In this document: positions 12,658 through 36,511 of the stretch, one piece after another | Layout of the letters: the number at the start of each line of letters is the position of its first letter | How positions within the stretch are numbered: position 1 is the first letter of the stretch | Origin: a virus | DNA: 36,715 bases | Strand: one strand, 5' to 3' | IMG/VR virus record: IMGVR_UViG_3300030099_003026 | Coordinates: 1 to 36,715 of that record | Position numbers and translations under genes: made by a program | Notes under the pieces: generated by a model | What the model was told of the DNA's origin: nothing | Databases searched by the model: none | The model's input: the letters and a program-made list of their open reading frames with translations, nothing else

Positions 12658-14159
12658 TGCCGATTGCAGCTGAGTCGTTACGCCTTGGCCCTTGGAGAAG
12701 TGGGGTAAACTACAGTCTACCGGCTGAAGATATGCCACCTGATGGTATTTACGAAATGGAAAACTGCACGGTTGGGTTGGCCGGTGAGGTAGCTAAACGT
12801 AACGGTTTTGCAAAATTTAACGCTACTGCTATGAACAGCGGTGCGACAATAACAGCTTGTGGTCAGGTTGTCTTAGCCGGAACAGAAAAAGTGTTTGCTT
12901 TTGCAGGTAATAAGTTTTTTGACGTTACAGGTGGAACAGCAACAGATCGAACAGGTAGCGTCACCATAACCGCCGGCAATGACTATACGTGGGATTGGGT
13001 ATTGGCCGGAAACACATTGATCGCCGTAAACGGTCAGGACACAGACGGCATTAAATGGACGGGTGGATCAGCCAACGCAGCAACGCTTGATGACGATTCA
13101 AGGTTTACAAAACCAAAATGGGTAACCTTTTGGGAAAATCGTGCATGGGTTGGCAATTTAAACGGAGCGGCTGATCGCATATGGAGGAGCGATGCAGGTG
13201 ATATAGAAACTTGGGGTTCATTAAGTTTTCATTCAATAGGTTATGACGTAACAGGATTACGCCCATTTCAAAACTATTTGTCTGTTCACACAGAACAAGG
13301 CATTCATACACTTACGCCAACAGGTAACTCCACTATACCGTTTCAACAACAACAACGGACGCAACGCGGAACGATTGCTGGTAAAAGTATTGTCACGGTT
13401 CCTGGCGAGCGTCAGTTGTTTGTAAGAGACGATGGCATTTATCAATGGTCAGGCGGTGCAAGCGTTGAGAAGATCTCTTTAGCGCTGGATGATAGATACT
13501 GGTCAAACTTAAATGTAGCTCGTCTGCCCTTTTCGTTCGCTATGTATTACCCAGCACAAGAGCAGGTTTGGTTCTTTTTGCCTTTTGGTGACAGCACTCA
13601 AACCAGAATGAATAGTGTGGTTGTGTATTCATATCGTTTAAATGCTTGGTTTGGGCCTTATAACGGGTTTGAACGAGACAGCGTGGCATTAATAGACGAT
13701 TTGCCACATGCTGGAGATTTTGCTGGTAGAATAATGAAACACGACAGTGGAACCAATGACGATGGAAGTGCTATTAAAGCGTATTTTGAAACAGCCTCTG
13801 TAAGTCCGTATGGTGATGCAACAGAGTGTAGGTGGCTATATAACCGATTGTTGTATGACAATGTAGGTGCATTTGATATGTCTATATCGCAAGTAGCTGC
13901 CGGAATTGTTTCTAATACACAAACTGTTACCATGGGTAGTGCCGGAAGTGTTTTGAATAGCACGTTTGTTTTAGGAACGTCTGACCTTGCACCAGACGTA
14001 AGCGCATTAACAAGCGATACAGACTTATTTGGATATGACTCAAGAAGCATGTTGCGTTTTACTAATTTTAATTTAGATGAAACATTCACTATACGACGTA
14101 CAAGTCTTCAATACAAGCCTATTGGAAATGTGCGTCAACGTAAAACAGGTATAGAATAA
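12657..14159 (+). CDS. Tail nozzle / stabilisation protein
   Basis: This 500-aa, almost entirely beta protein has repeated Trp/Gly blades (WDWVLAGNTLIAVNG, WENRAWVGNLNG, LFVRDDGIYQWSGG), which suggests a beta-propeller like the P22 gp10 stabilisation protein or podovirus nozzle proteins. The N-terminus LGPWRSGVNYSLP is typical of the family. It would close the tail tube and hold DNA in the head. It follows the adaptor gene with a one-base start/stop overlap. Homology is inferred from memory and layout. Confidence 0.65.
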   Translation: MPIAAESLRLGPWRSGVNYSLPAEDMPPDGIYEMENCTVGLAGEVAKRNGFAKFNATAMNSGATITACGQVVLAGTEKVFAFAGNKFFDVTGGTATDRTGSVTITAGNDYTWDWVLAGNTLIAVNGQDTDGIKWTGGSANAATLDDDSRFTKPKWVTFWENRAWVGNLNGAADRIWRSDAGDIETWGSLSFHSIGYDVTGLRPFQNYLSVHTEQGIHTLTPTGNSTIPFQQQQRTQRGTIAGKSIVTVPGERQLFVRDDGIYQWSGGASVEKISLALDDRYWSNLNVARLPFSFAMYYPAQEQVWFFLPFGDSTQTRMNSVVVYSYRLNAWFGPYNGFERDSVALIDDLPHAGDFAGRIMKHDSGTNDDGSAIKAYFETASVSPYGDATECRWLYNRLLYDNVGAFDMSISQVAAGIVSNTQTVTMGSAGSVLNSTFVLGTSDLAPDVSALTSDTDLFGYDSRSMLRFTNFNLDETFTIRRTSLQYKPIGNVRQRKTGIE

Positions 14160-16762
14160 TGACAGCGGTTAACTATCAGCAGATGATGACAGGCGGTAGC
14201 CAGAAGAAGAAAAAGAAACAGCCTACAATGGCACAGGCTCAAGGTGCTGGTGTTCAACAACCGCAGACATATGGTCAGCCGTCAATGGCTCAAGCACAAG
14301 GTCAACAAGATCCATTAGTGAGTGCAATAGCTGCCGGTAGTCAGGCTCAAAATCAACAGCCTACAATGGCGCAAGCTCAAGGTGGAATGCAACCTCAACA
14401 GCAACAGCCAACGATGCAACAGGCGCAAGGTGGCGCTACGCCACCACCACCTCCTCCACCGCCACCACCGGCTCCGTCGATGGCTCAAGCGCAAGCACCA
14501 GCACCGCAGCCAAGTATGGCTCAAGCACAAGGTGGAATGACAGGCCCACAACAAGCAATGGCACAAGCACAAAGTCCGTTAGCAGGTATGGATTTTAGTA
14601 GCCAATTACAGCAAGAGCAACCGCAATTTTCTGAAGATGAAATAAGGCGTAGGGCAATAGAGAGCAGTAACCAGTTTATGTCACCAGAGCAGCAAGAGCA
14701 GATGTTGCTTGCTGGAATGAAAAATTTTAACGAAGCAGGTTTTAGTCAAAATGCAACCCAGCAAACTTTAACAGGCCAAGCACCGCAGCCTACAATGGCA
14801 CAAGCGCAACAACAACAGCCAGTGGCTCAGCCATCAATAGCCCAACCATCGATGGCACAGGCGCAACAGCCGGTAGCTCAACCAAGCATGGCTGATGCAC
14901 AAAGCGCAGCATCTATTCAACCGGCAATTAATGTAAACCCAACAAGTGATCCGAATTTTGGACAAGCACCAGCCACAGCGGTCAACCCAACAAGTGATCC
15001 AAATTTCGGAAGAGCGCCAGCAACTACAGTGAATCCAACGAGCGACCCAAACTTTGGAAGGCCACCAGCAACAACGGTGAATCCAACGAGCGATCCAAAT
15101 TTTGGTAGAGCGCCGGCTACAACGGTTAACCCGACAAGCGATCCAAACTTTGGCAAAGCTCCAGCAACTACGGTAAATCCAATTAGCAATCCTGGCTTTG
15201 TATCTGACTTAGCTACTGGTCAGCCGGTAACAGAAAATCCATTAAGTGATCCGTTAGCTGTTAGAGCAATGGAAGAAGAACGCAGAAGCCAACCGGTTAC
15301 AGAAAATCCTTTAAGTGACCCATCGTTTGTTCAAGGTTTAGCTGCTGATGCAACTACGCCTACTGACGCATTAGGTGCCGGTGCGGATATGGCAGCCGCT
15401 CAAAATGTGGTTGAACCCGAAGCTGCACCAATGGCTGATACGTTAGAAGGTGCGTTACGTCAGCAATACATGGATCGAATTGGTGGAACAGACGATCCGA
15501 TTTTAGCATCACAATTAGCCGATCAGCAGATGCGCCAGAACGAAGCACGTAAGGCACTCGTCGAGCAGTTGGGTCGATATGGTGTATTGCGAGGCGGTGG
15601 CGATACAGCGGCTGCTTTAGCGAGAATGGGCGAGGGCGATGAGCGTAACCGGTTAGCACTTGAAGCTCAAGCTGCACAACGCAGACAACAGGACTTACGT
15701 GATGCACAAGGTTTTGATTTGGGTCAACGTGGTATGGGTCTGCAAGAAGGTCGTTTCGATCAGGACAGGCTTACGCAAGAACTGGCAAGAGAAGTTACTG
15801 AGGCCGGTCAAACCGGTCAGTTTAGAGGCGGTCAAACAATGGCCGGACAACGCCAGGAAGCAGACATCTTTGGCGAAGTAGACGGTAGGCAGACATTGCA
15901 GTCTGATATACAGCGTGGCCAGTTAGGATTAGGTGAACGTCAAACCGGCTTACAGGAACGCACCGGTGCAGAGGACATTCGCAGATCAGCAGCGCAACGT
16001 GGAGCAATAGAAGGTCAGGAAGGTCGTGCTGAACGCCAGTTAGAATCACAGTTGTTTGGTGAGATCGATGGTCAGCAAACGCTAACGGGTGAAACCACAC
16101 GAAGCGGATTAGATACCCAAGACTTACAGCGTAGAATAGCTGAAGCCGGTCAGACCGGACTGTTTGATCAAGGCATAGAAGGCGTTGATCCAATACAAAC
16201 ACAGCAAGCCAGAGCATTACAGAGCGAACTGGAAACGGCTGCATTAGGACGTGATGCCACACGCGCTGGTTTGACGGGTACGTTTGACGACGATCCAACA
16301 TTAGAAGCTCGACTACGTGAAGCTGCAATGACCGGAAGATTAGGAGAAGGCGAAGACGAGCGACTGACATTGGCCGGAAGACAAGCTGAAATGGATACGA
16401 TAGGCGCAATATTGGCTGGTCAAGATTTAAATGATCGTAGGTTAGATCCATTACTACAAGGTTTAACAGAAAACATAGACAGTGAAGTTTTAGGTGAAGA
16501 AGCATCGCAAAGGTTTAGAGATGCTCAAGGTTTAAGCTCTATGCCTCAAGCAAGTCCATTTATGTCACCTGATAATATGAGAAGGTTTATAGAACTTGAA
16601 AAAATACTTAATGACCGTGGTGCAGGAATTAACCCGAATGAACGCGCATTAATTTATGAAGAAATGAGAGGGTTAAACCAAGAAACCGGTCAAAGCAGCA
16701 TGTTTGACTCGGCCAGACGAGCAGCAGCAGAAGCAAGAAGAAGAAGAGAAGAAGGAGAATAA
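14159..16762 (+). CDS. Large repetitive Gln-rich virion protein
   Basis: This 867-aa protein has three parts. Residues about 1-255 carry around ten copies of a PTMAQAQ / PSMAQAQ heptad-like motif separated by Gln/Pro linkers, including a run of ten prolines. Residues about 258-355 are five 16-aa repeats (VNPTSDPNFG plus a linker), a degenerate sixth copy and two ENPLSDP copies. The remainder is a Gln/Arg-rich helical region with QTGQFRGGQ-, GLQERTGAEDI- and TGLFDQG-type repeats. The first parts look disordered. It lies where podoviruses encode internal (ejection) proteins, so an ejected internal virion role is likely. It is one of the three large proteins after the nozzle gene. Confidence 0.6.
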   Translation: MTAVNYQQMMTGGSQKKKKKQPTMAQAQGAGVQQPQTYGQPSMAQAQGQQDPLVSAIAAGSQAQNQQPTMAQAQGGMQPQQQQPTMQQAQGGATPPPPPPPPPPAPSMAQAQAPAPQPSMAQAQGGMTGPQQAMAQAQSPLAGMDFSSQLQQEQPQFSEDEIRRRAIESSNQFMSPEQQEQMLLAGMKNFNEAGFSQNATQQTLTGQAPQPTMAQAQQQQPVAQPSIAQPSMAQAQQPVAQPSMADAQSAASIQPAINVNPTSDPNFGQAPATAVNPTSDPNFGRAPATTVNPTSDPNFGRPPATTVNPTSDPNFGRAPATTVNPTSDPNFGKAPATTVNPISNPGFVSDLATGQPVTENPLSDPLAVRAMEEERRSQPVTENPLSDPSFVQGLAADATTPTDALGAGADMAAAQNVVEPEAAPMADTLEGALRQQYMDRIGGTDDPILASQLADQQMRQNEARKALVEQLGRYGVLRGGGDTAAALARMGEGDERNRLALEAQAAQRRQQDLRDAQGFDLGQRGMGLQEGRFDQDRLTQELAREVTEAGQTGQFRGGQTMAGQRQEADIFGEVDGRQTLQSDIQRGQLGLGERQTGLQERTGAEDIRRSAAQRGAIEGQEGRAERQLESQLFGEIDGQQTLTGETTRSGLDTQDLQRRIAEAGQTGLFDQGIEGVDPIQTQQARALQSELETAALGRDATRAGLTGTFDDDPTLEARLREAAMTGRLGEGEDERLTLAGRQAEMDTIGAILAGQDLNDRRLDPLLQGLTENIDSEVLGEEASQRFRDAQGLSSMPQASPFMSPDNMRRFIELEKILNDRGAGINPNERALIYEEMRGLNQETGQSSMFDSARRAAAEARRRREEGE
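14933..15220 (+). repeat. 48-bp tandem repeats coding 16-aa units
   Basis: Units start at 14933, 14981, 15029, 15077 and 15125, with a degenerate sixth at 15173. Each encodes VNPTSDPNFG plus a six-residue linker (APATT-like). The copies of the core differ mostly at third codon positions (for example AAC/AAT, GAT/GAC, TTT/TTC) while the core residues are unchanged, so the protein repeat is under selection. Confidence 0.85.
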
Positions 16763-27390: not shown

Positions 27391-28644
27391 TTAGGCTGAT
27401 TTGATGACTTCTAAATTGGTATCTCCAGGATCTCCATATCCGTCCAGTTTGCTGACGGCCTCTTTTTGTAAGTTGTCTTCTTCTTTTGCATAGCGCATCA
27501 TCATTGAATGCGATGACCATCCACCCATTCGCATCAAAACGCTATCTTTTACGTCATTGTTTTTCGCCATGTCCGTTGCCCATGTATGGCGCATTAGATG
27601 GCGTGTAACTTTCTCAATCGTCCATCTTTTTTCGCCTTTAAATTTTTCAGTAGCTTTGGTCAACTTGGCAACTGCTTTGTCTATTGCTTTAGCGATGCTC
27701 ATGTGCGGTATGATTAAATCGTTAAGGTTTTTATCAGATGGCCATACAATAACCCTGCGGTTGTTAATTACCCATTCTGTTCCACTCCGCATCTCTTCTA
27801 ACTTTTCACTTATGTAACGGGTCATGTATATTTTTCTGCCTTCATCACGCTTGCTTAGTTTAGTTCCTTTTTCGTTAGCTGCTCGTAGTTGTATGTAGCC
27901 GATAGATCCGTCGTCAGGCCATTTAACATCACGCCATTTCAAGCTATGCAGTTCACTGGCTCTCATACCTGTATAACGAAGAAAGCACATAATGACACGC
28001 ACGTAAGGGGGTAGATATGACAACATCATTTCAAACTGTTTTTGTGTCAGTGGTTCTTTCTCTTCGACAACTTCTTCTACGTGTATCACATCATCCATAG
28101 GCCAACGATTTATATAGTTCTTTTGTTCAGCAAGGTGCATAACGCACGATATAAAAGATTTATAACGATTGCGCGAAGATTCCTTCCAGCCACCTTCCAA
28201 ACCACGTATACCTTTTTTACTCTTCTTTGCTAAATAATCAGAGATAAATTCGCCCGTCATCGACTGCACTGGCACGTTGCCAAGATCCGGTGCAAGACAC
28301 GTTAATTTTGACCGTTCTTGTTTTAGTGTTTCATCGGATTTCTTCCAAGCTGGTCTGAGTTTTCTTTTTTTAAGTAGAGGGGTTTCTTTCGTATCGCCGT
28401 TAAAGTATTCTTCGGCAACTTGGGCAAAGGTTACGCCTCTGTTTTTTTTGACCTCTTGCACTTTATCAAATGTGCCACCTTCAATTGCCTCGTTTAATTC
28501 TTTTGCCTTGATTTTTGCTACATGCAAGTTTTCGCACTTTAAAGACTTCCATTTTCTAATACCATTTTGTCGCCAATAGGCAGTCCAAGTGTTTCCGCGC
28601 TTAAAGTAAGTAACACTGCCCTGATTATATTTTTTAGCAGCCAT
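27391..28644 (-). CDS. int: Tyrosine integrase with arm-binding domain
   Basis: The 417-aa protein starts at ATG 28644, with GGAGG just upstream; an ATG at 28656 adds four residues. The N-terminus is a beta-rich arm-binding domain (GSVTYFKRGNTWTAYWRQ), the middle is the core-binding domain, and the catalytic part has Arg in YTGMRASEL, the box HLMRHTWAT and a late GGWSSHSMMMRYAK with the Tyr nucleophile. This is the lambda/P4-like class that integrates phage DNA at tRNA genes. It lies next to attP, with paired arm repeats on both sides, and downstream of the excisionase gene, separated by a terminator. Confidence 0.92.
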   Translation of the reverse strand: MAAKKYNQGSVTYFKRGNTWTAYWRQNGIRKWKSLKCENLHVAKIKAKELNEAIEGGTFDKVQEVKKNRGVTFAQVAEEYFNGDTKETPLLKKRKLRPAWKKSDETLKQERSKLTCLAPDLGNVPVQSMTGEFISDYLAKKSKKGIRGLEGGWKESSRNRYKSFISCVMHLAEQKNYINRWPMDDVIHVEEVVEEKEPLTQKQFEMMLSYLPPYVRVIMCFLRYTGMRASELHSLKWRDVKWPDDGSIGYIQLRAANEKGTKLSKRDEGRKIYMTRYISEKLEEMRSGTEWVINNRRVIVWPSDKNLNDLIIPHMSIAKAIDKAVAKLTKATEKFKGEKRWTIEKVTRHLMRHTWATDMAKNNDVKDSVLMRMGGWSSHSMMMRYAKEEDNLQKEAVSKLDGYGDPGDTNLEVIKSA

Positions 28645-28660
28645 TCTTTCCTCCATGTTT

Positions 28661-28678
28661 TGCTACCGAAATGCTACC
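28661..28678. repeat. Left arm-type sites: TGCTACC twice, 11 bp apart
   Basis: TGCTACC occurs at 28661-28667 and 28672-28678, in the same orientation and 11 bp apart (about one helical turn). The identical pair occurs at 28914-28931 on the other side of the tRNA segment, also 11 bp apart. Paired, equally spaced direct repeats flanking a crossover core are the hallmark of integrase arm sites. A related TGCTACG lies at 28711. Confidence 0.75.
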
Positions 28679-28723
28679 ATAAGAGAGCATTTGCCGGTAT
28701 GCGTGTGGGTTGCTACGTAGGAA

Positions 28724-28752
28724 AATATAGCTATCTTTATACTGCTATACAA
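28724..28752 (-). promoter_or_regulatory. Possible integrase promoter
   Basis: On the minus strand TTGTAT (28747-28752) is separated by 17 bases from TATATT (28724-28729), a five-of-six -10. It lies about 80 bases before the integrase start. A small palindrome GCAC-AAA-GTGC at 28753-28763 sits directly upstream and shares its half-sites with the repressor promoter operator at 34885-34902. Confidence 0.4.
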
Positions 28753-28804
28753 GCACAAAGTGCATAAGTTGTTGTTTTTATTAAAAGCTCAAATCTCTAC
28801 GTTA

Positions 28805-28854
28805 AGTGACTGTTAATCACTTGGTCGTTGGTTCGAATCCAACCGCCGGAGCCA
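28805..28854 (+). other. attP: attP core: 3' end of tRNA-Asn(GTT)
   Basis: The 50 bases reproduce the 3' part of a tRNA gene: anticodon stem AGTGA/TCACT (28805-28809, 28817-28821) with loop CTGTTAA holding anticodon GTT, variable region TGGTC, T arm GTTGG-TTCGAAT-CCAAC (28827-28843), 3' acceptor strand CGCCGGA, discriminator G and CCA. The 5' half is absent, so this is not a working tRNA but the phage copy that restores the host tRNA-Asn gene on integration. The flanking repeats and neighbouring int and xis complete the site. Confidence 0.85.
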
Positions 28855-28859
28855 TAAAA

Positions 28860-28895
28860 AACAACCACTTACATTAATTTGTAGGTGGTTGTTTT
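28860..28895. terminator. Bidirectional terminator beside attP
   Basis: The stem AACAACCACTTACA / TGTAGGTGGTTGTT (14 bp, one wobble) has a 6-base loop, with TTTT on the plus side and six T on the minus side. On the plus strand it would end the rebuilt host tRNA transcript; on the minus strand it lies between xis and int and could uncouple them. Confidence 0.75.
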
Positions 28896-28913
28896 GGTTT
28901 AAAGTAGGCCGTT

Positions 28914-28931
28914 TGCTACCATAATGCTACC
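28914..28931. repeat. Right arm-type sites: TGCTACC twice, 11 bp apart
   Basis: TGCTACC occurs at 28914-28920 and 28925-28931, with the same orientation and spacing as the left pair. The second copy overlaps the stop codon of the excisionase gene. With the left pair these make a complete P/P' arm layout around the tRNA-Asn core. Confidence 0.75.
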
Positions 28932-29133
28932 GTTCGATTCCGTTGCCCCCTTGTTTACGGTCGGCAACAAACTGTTGAACATCAGCCAAATCAAAGCGAG
29001 TTGATGCAGAAATTTTAATAAAAGGCAATTCACCGATTGCTTTCAGTGCATAAACTTTGTTGATAGAAATGGACAACATCTCTGCCACTTCCGGCACGGT
29101 CAGCAATTTGAGTTGGTCTGTTTTATCTGTCAT
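28927..29133 (-). CDS. xis: Excisionase-like MerR/HTH_17 protein
   Basis: The 68-aa protein begins MTDKTDQLKLLTVPEVAEML at ATG 29133, after GGAG with 8-base spacing. It has a single winged helix of the excisionase type (VPEVAEMLSISINKVYALKA, then PFIKISASTRFDLADV), ending in a basic tail. Such proteins bend attachment-site DNA and direct integrase to excise. Its stop codon overlaps the right arm site of attP. This layout (xis, attP, int) is the standard excision module; a terminator separates xis from int. Confidence 0.75.
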   Translation of the reverse strand: MTDKTDQLKLLTVPEVAEMLSISINKVYALKAIGELPFIKISASTRFDLADVQQFVADRKQGGNGIER

Positions 29134-29393
29134 TCGCTTTTCTCCAGGACAACGGTTCGATACCGGTCAGACAATGCGACTCTTGGCCCGTATGCTAAAT
29201 GACCCTTTTTCTGCAAACGGTTTATCTGGGTGCTGACAGAGAACGTGGACTTCAAGCCAAGCTCTTCGCATATCTGCCGGATGGTCGGTGTGCGATTGTG
29301 TTCCTCTAAGTGTCGCCGTATGACATCCAGCACCCGTTGTTGTGCCGGAGTCACTGGCGTGTTGTGCGTATCTCGAAATTGTCGTTTATCCAT
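29130..29393 (-). CDS. LexA-type winged-helix DNA-binding protein
   Basis: The 87-aa protein starts at ATG 29393 after GAGGAG with 6-base spacing. Residues about 15-70 match the LexA DNA-binding domain: TPAQQRVLDVIRRHLEEH, TPTIRQICEELGLKS, then VSTQINRLQKKGHL. The peptidase half of LexA is absent, so it would bind DNA without self-cleavage. It may be a small repressor acting in the early region. Its stop overlaps the xis start (ATGA). Confidence 0.7.
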   Translation of the reverse strand: MDKRQFRDTHNTPVTPAQQRVLDVIRRHLEEHNRTPTIRQICEELGLKSTFSVSTQINRLQKKGHLAYGPRVALSDRYRTVVLEKSE

Positions 29394-29625: not shown

Positions 29626-30056
29626 AAATATTCCGATTCGTTTTTAAGTGCGTCCATCACATCTTCGTGCAGCATTTTTAAATCAATTAAAATGGACGTT
29701 GTGTAAGGAAAATTTGTGCTGGTGTGCCACGATACTTTTACAGCCAAATCTGACGTAACATAGAGCGACATATATCGTGATGAGCTTTTCGTTTCATCTA
29801 AATACCTCTTAATGCCAATGTTCAATAACTCTGCTTTGAATGATAGCTTTTTTGGAGCTACGCCAAGCCTTTGCAAGTTCCACGCAAGTTTAGTCATCAT
29901 AAGGTTTGCAATGCTGTAGCGTCTGGTCGTGCCGGTGCCGGGTCGCTGGTCGTGATGATCGACGATCTGCAAATCGGCAAACGCGGTAAGTCTGCGTACG
30001 GGTATGCTAAACATGTGTGAAACTTGTGCCGTGCCGAGTATGGGTAGGTTGTGCAT
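29610..30056 (-). CDS. MerR-like HTH protein, 148 aa
   Basis: ATG 30056 is preceded by GGAG with 8-base spacing. The N-terminus fits a MerR-type winged helix (AQVSHMFSIPVRRLTAFADL, then GTTRRYSIANLMMTKLAW, about 10-60). The rest is beta/helical with a VSWHTSTNFPYTTSILID block and ends in a charged helix. A signal-binding domain is possible. It is likely a regulator of the early block. Its end overlaps the 79-aa gene by 16 bases, and its start overlaps the methyltransferase stop. Confidence 0.6.
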   Translation of the reverse strand: MHNLPILGTAQVSHMFSIPVRRLTAFADLQIVDHHDQRPGTGTTRRYSIANLMMTKLAWNLQRLGVAPKKLSFKAELLNIGIKRYLDETKSSSRYMSLYVTSDLAVKVSWHTSTNFPYTTSILIDLKMLHEDVMDALKNESEYLCQMK

Positions 30057-31141
30057 TATTCTGTCTCCATGTAGGATTCTATAAACGCTTGCGCTTGGGG
30101 CGCGACGATGGCGTTGCCGTAACCGCGGAGGCGCACCATTCGGGCGGAAGACCCATCAACCAACGGGGCAAGGCCGGGTTCAGTTGGCCTCCATTTTTGA
30201 TCTCTGCACCAGATCCAATCTGCATTTCGCCAGTAGCCGTTAATCGGGCCGGCCCCGTGAGTGTCGCTGATGTTGCCAGTGGATTTCCGGCATTTGCCCC
30301 TCGCGGATTGTCCGGATTTTTGGATGGCCCTCCGGTTGAGGCGGTTGGACTGCTCCACCCCGTCAGCTGGACTGTTGTGCCAAGTTTCATCAGCCCTCCG
30401 CTTTTGCCTTCTTTCTTGCGTCTCTGTTTCCGTTTTTCTACTGTCTCCAATTTCTCGCAGGTTTCGCTTGCATTGCACGTTGGCCACCCCGTCAGTTGGC
30501 TCTGTGTCACCAGTGTCATTCCGAACTTCGTACCGGTTGTTTTGCTGATCCGTTGTGCGTTGCCGTTTTTGTCCATCGTGATTGCATGTGGCCCTCTGTT
30601 GCCGTCCATTGCTGTTGGGCTGTTCCACGTTGTCGGCGAACCAGTAGAGTCTTTGCCGGAGGTGCGGTGCGCCGACGCTACAAGCTGGAAAAACGACCAA
30701 CCCTGCGGCGTACTTTTCTCGCGCAAGGTCTGCTTGTAGAGCGTCGAACCAAGCCTGACCAGCTTTTTGTGCAACCTGCTCACCAAATATTGTTGGCGGT
30801 CTTTTGCTCTCTGGTAGACCGGCGATGACGCGAAACATTTCCGGCCAGAGGTGTCGCTTGTCTTTTGTTCCATCTTTTTTTCCGGCTGATGAGAATGGCT
30901 GGCATGGACAACTTCCGGTGAGGACGGGTCTATCGTCCGGCCATCCGGCTTGTCGGAGTGCGTAGCTCCAGACCCCGATGCCGGCGAAGAGGTGAATTTG
31001 TTTATATTGAACAAGGTCATTTGATCTAACATCTCTAATGTCTCTCTCGTCTACGTCACCCGGTGCGATTAGATCCTGTTTAATCAGTTCGCGTAACCAG
31101 GCACAAGTTTGTTTGTCGTTTTCGTTATAGTAGGCCGTCAT
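30056..31141 (-). CDS. dcm-like: DNA C5-cytosine methyltransferase
   Basis: The 361-aa protein carries the C5-methyltransferase motifs: I as LFAGIG (51-56), IV with the catalytic Cys in GSCPCQPFSSAG (C80), VI as GEQV (E121), VIII as GAPHLRQRLYW (157-167), and the late motifs RGYGNAIVAPQA near residue 345. It transfers a methyl from SAM to cytosine in a specific site, probably to shield phage DNA from host restriction. Between about 180 and 300 the sequence is a charged, low-complexity stretch with no hydrophobic core, unusual for the target-recognition domain. That stretch lies where the second frame (30079-31032) codes for something else. Confidence 0.9.
   Translation of the reverse strand: MTAYYNENDKQTCAWLRELIKQDLIAPGDVDERDIRDVRSNDLVQYKQIHLFAGIGVWSYALRQAGWPDDRPVLTGSCPCQPFSSAGKKDGTKDKRHLWPEMFRVIAGLPESKRPPTIFGEQVAQKAGQAWFDALQADLAREKYAAGLVVFPACSVGAPHLRQRLYWFADNVEQPNSNGRQQRATCNHDGQKRQRTTDQQNNRYEVRNDTGDTEPTDGVANVQCKRNLREIGDSRKTETETQERRQKRRADETWHNSPADGVEQSNRLNRRAIQKSGQSARGKCRKSTGNISDTHGAGPINGYWRNADWIWCRDQKWRPTEPGLAPLVDGSSARMVRLRGYGNAIVAPQAQAFIESYMETE
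30079..31032 (-). CDS. Second long gene overlapping the methyltransferase
   Basis: A 317-codon frame runs entirely inside the methyltransferase gene on the same strand, one frame over. Its product has features of a real protein. The N-terminal part contains SGSGATHSDKPDGRTIDPS and STLYKQTLREKSTPQGW, then ASAHRTSGKDST. A repeated motif (TWNSPTAMDG, LTGWPTCNAS, LTGWSSPTAS) follows, and the C-terminus ends PARLTATGEMQIGSGAEIKN, GGQLNPALPRWLMGLPPEW. From memory, these blocks belong to a phage/prophage protein family of unknown function, often next to or over C5-methyltransferase genes. No catalytic residues are obvious. I consider it real, with dual coding of about 950 bases. Confidence 0.65.
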   Translation of the reverse strand: MLDQMTLFNINKFTSSPASGSGATHSDKPDGRTIDPSSPEVVHASHSHQPEKKMEQKTSDTSGRKCFASSPVYQRAKDRQQYLVSRLHKKLVRLGSTLYKQTLREKSTPQGWSFFQLVASAHRTSGKDSTGSPTTWNSPTAMDGNRGPHAITMDKNGNAQRISKTTGTKFGMTLVTQSQLTGWPTCNASETCEKLETVEKRKQRRKKEGKSGGLMKLGTTVQLTGWSSPTASTGGPSKNPDNPRGANAGNPLATSATLTGPARLTATGEMQIGSGAEIKNGGQLNPALPRWLMGLPPEWCASAVTATPSSRPKRKRL

Positions 31142-35212: not shown

Positions 35213-35428
35213 TTACGACGAATACAATTTAAGCCAATCTGCTCCAGGTTTCAATGTTGCAATTAATTCAACAAAGCGTATGATGGTTTCAGACGGCTCT
35301 GCCTTGTTGCGTTCCCACCGGTTTTGCGCGATGGCCGTGACTCCAATCATACCGGCAAACGTGCGCTGGCTCAGACCTAAACTCTCACGCACTTCTTTGA
35401 TGCGCTCTCCGGGCGTTTGCTCACTCAT
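35213..35428 (-). CDS. XRE-family HTH regulator, 71 aa
   Basis: I place the start at ATG 35428 (MSEQTPGERIKEV), with GGAG 7 bases upstream; the longer frame to 35557 overlaps the recombinase fully. The protein is one HTH_3 domain (ERIKEVRESLGLSQRTFAGM, then IAQNRWERNKAEPS) with a short C-terminal helix. It likely binds DNA as a dimer. The start overlaps the recombinase stop (ATGAGTGA), so the two are coupled. It may regulate its own operon or the GTGCA-type operators; the sequence does not say. Confidence 0.7.
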   Translation of the reverse strand: MSEQTPGERIKEVRESLGLSQRTFAGMIGVTAIAQNRWERNKAEPSETIIRFVELIATLKPGADWLKLYSS

Positions 35429-36341
35429 TGCCCACTCCAATCGATATGTAATCGGTTGCGTTATCCGATAGGGCATCGCGTTCCGTGTAATAGCGCATGG
35501 TCGTTTTGATATCCTTATGCCTAAGATGCGATTGAACCTGTTGGGGTTTCGCTCCACCTTCCATAGCCAAGGTAGCGCATGTATGGCGTAACTGGTGCGT
35601 GGTAATCTTTAATCCAATCATCTCGCCGTATCGCACCACTACATCGCGCACGGCCTTACTGCTGATCTGATCGCCGTATCTGCTCTTGTGATGCAATGAT
35701 ACAAATACGTAATCAAACTCGCCGTTGTATGCGTCCGACAACGCGGTGAGTGCCTCGACAACAATAGGGGCCAGCTTTACATGCTGATCGGTTCCGGCCT
35801 TTGTGTCACGCAGTATAACAATTGTATGACCGCCTTCGACAATCAGGTCAGACCATTGCATGCTGCAAGCCTCGTTGCGCCGTAGACCGGCATACAATAG
35901 AACCTTGAGCAATGCTACGTCGCGCAATGCAATCAAGCGGTTGTCGTGCTTGCTTGCAAGGCTAATCATTTCGGCTATATGTTCAGGTGCAATCGCTTTG
36001 CCTACTGAGGTATCGGCCATCCGCAATCGTTTGACCAAGGCACTGTCTGCCGGGTTACGTGCAATCAAACCCAACGCTACGCATCGCTTAAAAAACGCAA
36101 ACAGGCTGGTGAGATACCGGTTCACCGTCGTCGGCTTTTTACCTTCCGCGACCAGGTCGTTCCGGTATTGCTCAACATCTTCAAAACCTATCGATGTCAC
36201 CTGGTTAATCGTAATCAAATCCGTGCCGAAGAACGCCCGTAGATCGGCGCTGTAGGCTATACGGGTATGGGTTGTGGTTTGTGACTCCAGGAACGGCGCA
36301 AGCAAATCTGCTGACGGATGGGGCAATGATAATACAGTCAT
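35421..36341 (-). CDS. Second tyrosine recombinase, XerC/D-like
   Basis: The 306-aa protein starts at ATG 36341, overlapping the previous stop by ATGA; a frame to 36389 is less likely. It lacks the arm-binding domain of the first integrase. The N-terminus (about 10-110) is a SAM-like core-binding domain (HTRIAYSADLRAFFG), and the catalytic domain has Arg in YAGLRRNEAC, the box HQLRHTCATLA and the final LRHKDIKTTMRYYTE with the Tyr. This resembles Xer-type enzymes. It may resolve dimers or act at another site rather than at the tRNA-Asn attP. The operon ends with an XRE gene and a terminator. Confidence 0.9.
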   Translation of the reverse strand: MTVLSLPHPSADLLAPFLESQTTTHTRIAYSADLRAFFGTDLITINQVTSIGFEDVEQYRNDLVAEGKKPTTVNRYLTSLFAFFKRCVALGLIARNPADSALVKRLRMADTSVGKAIAPEHIAEMISLASKHDNRLIALRDVALLKVLLYAGLRRNEACSMQWSDLIVEGGHTIVILRDTKAGTDQHVKLAPIVVEALTALSDAYNGEFDYVFVSLHHKSRYGDQISSKAVRDVVVRYGEMIGLKITTHQLRHTCATLAMEGGAKPQQVQSHLRHKDIKTTMRYYTERDALSDNATDYISIGVGNE

Positions 36342-36511
36342 CGGTTTGCCTCGCTTTCCAGATCCGTTTTGAGATCGCGTATCAGCCAATCAAACCCGGT
36401 ATTAAACTCTTCGTTAGCAGCCATGCGTTCGCGCTCTGTTTCGTTGGTAATCGATTCGGTGCGAAAGTGAGCCAATCGTTCCAGCCATTCCAGTATTTCC
36501 TGTTTAGTCAT
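36338..36511 (-). CDS. Unknown 57-aa charged helical protein
   Basis: The frame starts at ATG 36511 and overlaps both neighbours (start within the previous stop region, stop within the recombinase start). The protein begins MTKQEILEWLERLAHFRTES and is helical and charged throughout, with an EEFNTGFDWLIRDLKTD middle. Small helical proteins of this kind often accompany recombinases as accessory factors, but no family is recognised. The tight overlap suggests fixed co-production with the recombinase. Confidence 0.6.
   Translation of the reverse strand: MTKQEILEWLERLAHFRTESITNETERERMAANEEFNTGFDWLIRDLKTDLESEANR

Follow-up and report, generated by a model that had tools for sequence, protein, structure and literature searches.

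A probable lambda-like attP at a tRNA-Asn 3' end in a viral contig, and the exchange of its arm sites and tRNA target with matching integrase domains among relatives

Introduction

The choice of arm sites is understood for few integrases. The locus studied here raises the question of whether a tRNA remnant set between short matched repeats and between two recombination genes is the attachment site of a temperate phage and, if so, which part of the DNA belongs with which part of the integrase. It lies in a viral contig 36,715 bases long, analyzed at full length and called the window below. A first-pass annotation of the sequence had proposed a complete attP here, i.e., a 50-bp tRNA-Asn(GTT) 3' end flanked by two identical pairs of TGCTACC with 11-bp spacing, with int and xis on either side, and had taken the core as a clue to the host. 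We examined this proposal in the window and in related viral contigs.

Results

Anatomy of the attachment region

Both repeat pairs were found at the predicted positions. TGCTACC occurs at 28661-28667 and 28672-28678 (P arm pair, 28661-28678) and at 28914-28920 and 28925-28931 (P' arm pair, 28914-28931), always on the + strand and 11 bp start to start within each pair; we read these copies as putative arm-type sites. The 7-mer alone is not unusual, with 6 copies in the window versus 3.6 expected. A search for the 18-bp pair that tolerates 2 mismatches finds it nowhere in the window but at these two positions (0.22 expected), and both copies are perfect. Between the pairs lies the core, the 3' part of tRNA-Asn(GTT) on the + strand, which extends from the anticodon stem at about 28804 to CCA at 28854 with the anticodon at 28812-28814; the annotated layout held, except that the tRNA part measures 51 bp rather than 50. 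ARAGORN detected no whole tRNA gene in the window or in the relatives' loci that were scanned, as expected, because an attP copy carries the 3' part only.

The two genes flank the core, one to each side, as had been claimed. On the left, int (27391-28656, - strand) encodes a tyrosine recombinase matching PF00589, with ATG at 28644 as the likely start and 28656 as the alternative. On the right, xis (28927-29133, - strand) encodes a 68-aa winged-helix protein of the excisionase family, scoring 31.9 bits against TIGR01764 (cut-off, 28.8) and matching the excisionase family phrog_66 and HTH_17; one detail had to be amended, in that the final TGCTACC overlaps the xis stop codon. Directly upstream of xis, a protein of 87 aa whose DNA-binding domain is of the LexA type (29130-29393, - strand) is possibly a regulator of excision, and further along, at 30056-31141 (- strand), is a phage cytosine-C5 DNA methyltransferase of the dcm superfamily. 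Two tandem arrays lie elsewhere in the window: a 48-bp unit in five copies (14936-15182) within an 867-aa gene (14159-16762), and a degenerate array of CAATC/CAATCTAATCT units (1080-1179) outside the larger open reading frames.

Several further elements were read between the arm pairs. The inner P arm (28685-28743) is a candidate Xis region. A candidate int promoter, TTGTAT-17-TATATT (28725-28752, - strand), is a weak sequence reading that falls below the tool threshold and is absent from the promoter scan listing; it is also present in the relatives L005 and L014. Two IHF-like 13-mers lie at -48 and +46 relative to the anticodon, each with one mismatch to the consensus: site H, AAACAACAACTTA (28765-28777, - strand; consensus WATCAANNNNTTR), and site H' (28859-28871), which forms the left arm of a 16-bp hairpin directly after CCA (28858-28895, + strand). 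The window very probably holds the complete attP of a temperate phage, lambda-like in build.

One layout with ten arm sequences

Relatives were gathered through Int relatives in IMG/VR and one pattern scan for a hairpin just after a tRNA part, and 21 further IMG/VR contigs were found with the same order of xis, attP, and int. Two other candidates, L040 and L041, encode distant integrases without the cassette and were set aside. The window and its relatives have ten arm types, a lower bound, since the collection rests on a single pattern scan and a small number of protein searches: TGCTACC (window and L013), TCTCCTTA (L005, L014, and L022), TGATCGAA (L009, L011, and L027), GGCATTA (L012), TTGCTAT (L015), TGTGTGCA (L016, L017, and L025), TGTCCCC (L028), TGACACA (L019, L024, L026, L044, L046, and L047), GTTTGAC (L020), and CTGTTCA (L021). 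The cores are 3' parts of tRNA-Asn(GTT), tRNA-Lys(TTT), or tRNA-Arg(CCT), in two versions of each. The same arms are found with different cores: TGTGTGCA with Lys and Arg, TCTCCTTA with Asn and Lys, and TGACACA with Lys and Asn.

All 14 distinct sites have one 6-mer that occurs twice in the left arm and twice in the right, each time exactly 11 bp apart, while none of the 14 shows such doubling at another spacing between 7 and 21; these sites include L013, whose arms are the same as the window's, and counting 12 or 13 independent sites tells the same story. Distances are equally constant (17 sites), with 151-153 bp from the left pair to the anticodon, 98-102 bp from the anticodon to the right pair, and 250-253 bp from pair to pair regardless of arm sequence. 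Site H is present at -47/-48 in 12 of 14 sites, its N4 positions being variable, and H' at +45/+46 in 13 of 14, a count that is partly selected because H' shares bases with the hairpin by which relatives were sought. A merely fortuitous layout around a tRNA fragment, without a functional attP, is hardly credible: the single 7-mer is indeed no rarer than chance and no host tRNA match was found (see below), but the same layout recurs with ten different sequences in 22 contigs, and two-arm 11-bp doubling arose in 0 of 14,000 dinucleotide shuffles. The matched pairs and fixed geometry across these contigs thus lend strong comparative support to the attP reading.

The core and the host

In the Lys-type relatives, tRNA identity starts at the anticodon loop, and the crossover would lie in or near this loop (28810-28816 in the window). 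The proposal that the core identifies a host has not been borne out so far, as the 49-bp core had no match in 84,980 species genomes searched for exact matches only, and the near-identical phage L013 has two substitutions within these 49 bp, which also tells against it. The host may be missing from the genomes searched. No lysogen was found, nor any attB, attL, or attR, which leaves tRNA-Asn a presumed rather than an observed site of integration; likewise, no Int relatives were found in genome_contigs. Relatives of the terminase and portal proteins in the 'phages' set are distant (32-36% and 22%, respectively) and indicate no host. One neisserial-type uptake word is present, at 35288, a number that chance can account for. 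L013 (IMGVR_UViG_3300025300_000986) carries a cassette near-identical to that of the window, and one of the substitutions in its tRNA-Asn part breaks a T-stem pair, so that a tRNA built with this half would be damaged.

A predicted arm-binding domain in Int

The catalytic residues R228, K259, H349, R352, W376, and Y385 are nearly invariant among 16 Int proteins, 15 of which match PF00589; the sixteenth is presumably missed as the truncated sequence of L012. In an AlphaFold2 model of Int (pLDDT 78.5), the N terminus folds into a small beta-sheet and a helix, and the N-terminal domain modeled alone (pLDDT 80.5) has strands at residues 11-16, 19-26, and 29-34 and a helix at 40-55. For the whole model, the best fold match is the Int of Tn1549, with a full-length match to lambda Int (1z1b). 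Foldseek alone returned no significant match for the 68-residue N-terminal domain. Upon further structure comparison, its top chains were the arm-binding domains 3rmp, 3jtz, and 3ju0 (Z 5.8-6.4), with the best alignments to the island integrases 3rmp (Z 6.4) and 3jtz (Z 6.2) at an rmsd of 1.9 over 54 residues, a moderate match, as Z below 8 can reflect a common arrangement. Pfam Arm-DNA-bind_3 matches three family members weakly. By its catalytic residues and its modeled N-terminal fold, Int is predicted to be a tyrosine recombinase with an arm-binding domain at residues 1 to approximately 66, the remainder being the predicted core-binding and catalytic part.

Most Int relatives are 362-426 aa long; that of L015 (5564-7063, - strand) has 500 aa with a big insertion in the catalytic part. 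The window also encodes a second tyrosine recombinase of 322 aa (35421-36389, - strand) without an arm-binding domain, which is XerC/D-like yet scores far under the cut-offs of those models. Its relatives in L027 (97%) and L021 (42%) indicate that it belongs to the phage family.

Arm sites vary with the N-terminal domain of Int and the core with its C-terminal part

Identity between Int N-terminal domains averages 0.84 in pairs with the same arm type versus 0.36 in other pairs (permutation p 5e-5), whereas the C-terminal part tracks the class of the tRNA core, i.e., Asn, Lys, or Arg (permutation p 0.0045). No association was detected between the N-terminal domain and the core (p 0.37); a weaker one between arm class and the C-terminal part (p 0.045) probably stems from shared ancestry. 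Over all pairs, the rank correlation of arm similarity with N-terminal domain identity is weak (0.19, p 0.06) because similarity among unrelated 7-mers is noise, and the class-based permutation test was used in its place. Arm type tracks the N-terminal domain of Int, not the tRNA, and this covariation, together with that of the core, further backs the attP reading.

The same relation is evident in individual swaps. The window and L005 are alike in the core (100%) and the Int C-terminal part (96% nt, 99% aa) but differ in the N-terminal domain, at 46%, as well as in the P leader (36%) and the P' pair (42% nt). The reverse holds for L005 and L014: the N-terminal domain (90%) and the P pair and P leader (100%) are alike, while the Int C-terminal part (54%) and core (67%) are not. 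Between L016 and L028, the N-terminal domain differs at 13 residues within the three strands, and the arms are TGTGTGCA and TGTCCCC, respectively.

A third element appears to be exchanged as well. In 9 of 14 sites, the inner P arm carries repeats at 10 bp (at least 7 of 8 positions identical), which we read as putative Xis sites; other spacings from 6 to 16 gave one such case only. The window's own repeat is weak (4 of 8 identical). This brings up the alternative that it is Xis, or a phage repressor, rather than Int that binds the 11-bp pairs. The last TGCTACC touches the xis gene, the window and L005 also differ in the C-terminal halves of Xis (54% nt), and the winged-helix directionality factor RdfS binds about one per 10 bp (PMC11963761). 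Two contrasts make the alternative improbable. Xis is almost unchanged between L017 and L028 (94-96% nt) and their inner P arms are identical (100%), but their arm pairs and Int N-terminal domains differ; conversely, L016 and L017 have the arm pairs in common and 99% identical N-terminal domains, but only 46% identity in the inner P arm. Hence, the pairs spaced at 11 bp track Int, and the inner repeats, spaced at 10 bp, track something else, most simply Xis. Altogether, the comparisons point to three separately exchanged pairings, i.e., N-terminal domain with arm pairs, C-terminal part with tRNA core, and, least certain, Xis with inner repeats, on a fixed scaffold in which arm sites and tRNA target have each been swapped many times along with the matching part of Int.

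The hairpin behind the tRNA part

The hairpin retains its 16 base pairs in all but one of 17 sites. Three pairs vary in a compensatory way, and pair 12 is a U-G wobble, which pairs in the + strand transcript only. The compensatory pairs and the wobble favor a role as a terminator for the restored tRNA gene, and we consider the hairpin probably a phage-borne terminator of this kind. Conceivably, though with lower probability, it is a DNA site alone, an inverted repeat for a protein: its left arm is one mismatch from the IHF consensus and mirrors site H, its T run on the + side is just 4 long, and it is missing from the terminator scan listing. Besides the pairing evidence, the loss of the IHF match in L046 with the stem kept speaks against this. 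As the left arm also fits IHF, both uses, by terminator and IHF, are possible.

Discussion

Under the attP reading, the elements are ordered as P arm pair, Xis region, H, tRNA core, H' within the hairpin, and P' arm pair. Int would bridge arm and core sites, its N-terminal domain binding the arm pairs with their 11-bp spacing and its C-terminal part binding and cutting the core at the anticodon loop, while accessory bending proteins acting at the IHF-like sites would fold the DNA. Integration would rebuild tRNA-Asn, with the phage providing the hairpin terminator right behind CCA. Because the two genes flank the core on opposite sides, int and xis would end up at opposite prophage ends and be expressed separately, and by occupying the P pair, which directly precedes int, Int may repress its own gene. 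The sequences themselves show the anatomy, the fixed geometry, the covariation, and the swaps; the steps of binding, bending, recombination, termination, and regulation are our interpretation of them.

How the swaps originated is a separate matter that does not compete with the attP explanation. The exchange of arms and N-terminal domains may well be neutral mosaicism, arising by homologous recombination in a shared gene pool and not by selection for insulation among phages with a common tRNA target; we give this an even chance. Phage genomes are generally mosaic, and the well-conserved flanks and core offer places to recombine, after which only working pairings survive. At least seven arm types on one tRNA-Lys core fit selection for distinct addresses instead. 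A further and less probable reading is that selection among phages sharing few tRNA sites repeatedly changes the N-terminal domain address on a rigid scaffold, such that Int would excise its own kind only. If addresses are private in this sense, the N-terminal domain should follow a simple, transferable recognition code, for which L016 and L028 would provide the change from TGTGTGCA to TGTCCCC with 13 strand residues.

The first-pass annotation did not extend to the IHF-like sites, the hairpin behind CCA, the candidate Xis repeats, or the family-wide swapping, and the swapping is of more interest than the layout itself. It offers ten arm sites and their domains on one scaffold, natural swaps in both directions, and a domain pair that differs almost only in three strands. 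Arm recognition and the question of private addresses thereby become directly testable with small pieces of DNA and protein, and sets of integrases could result that share a target and are inactive on each other's sites.

The window's site resembles in plan that of lambda, in which Int has a separate arm-binding N-terminal domain, IHF binds on either side of the core, inside the two arms P and P', and Xis acts in the P arm (PMC4880445). The IHF-like sites and the candidate Xis region would be the counterparts in the window; the total size of about 240-250 bp is similar, and Int matches 1z1b in structure. In contrast to the unequal arms of lambda, the window has two equal 11-bp pairs, and it further differs in its tRNA core with a crossover presumably at the anticodon loop, the hairpin after the core, and the separation of xis from int by attP. 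With the KplE1/HK620 system (IntS/TorI), it shares uncoupled int and directionality genes and, as candidate features, an integrase promoter in the att region and a tRNA target, whereas the layout of arm and Xis sites differs (PMC2951348). KplE1 IntS represses its own gene (PMC2951348), and Int here may well do likewise. A three-strand and helix arm-binding domain is described for the Tn916/Tn1549-type subgroup of integrases, to which the best whole-Int fold match, Tn1549 Int, belongs, and arm-binding domains are highly variable (PMC8138268); unlike those conjugative elements, the window comes from a phage whose site is in a tRNA sequence.

Cluster K mycobacteriophages (CrimD, Anaya, Adephagia, and Pixie) and Tweety share two arm-site pairs around an RNA-gene core, a stem-loop between the core and the P' arm, and different arms at the same attB, as with Tweety and Pixie, which have a common target; arm differences there track N-terminal residues of Int (PMC3203893). 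Arm pairs and their covariation with the N-terminal domain are thus already known on a small scale. Among the K1 phages, arms vary by single positions and the pairs are inverted, whereas the ten arms of the window family are unrelated and all direct, the geometry is constant, and swaps are explicit both ways. What is new here is the scale, with ten unrelated arm sequences, the constant geometry, and the clean two-way swaps.
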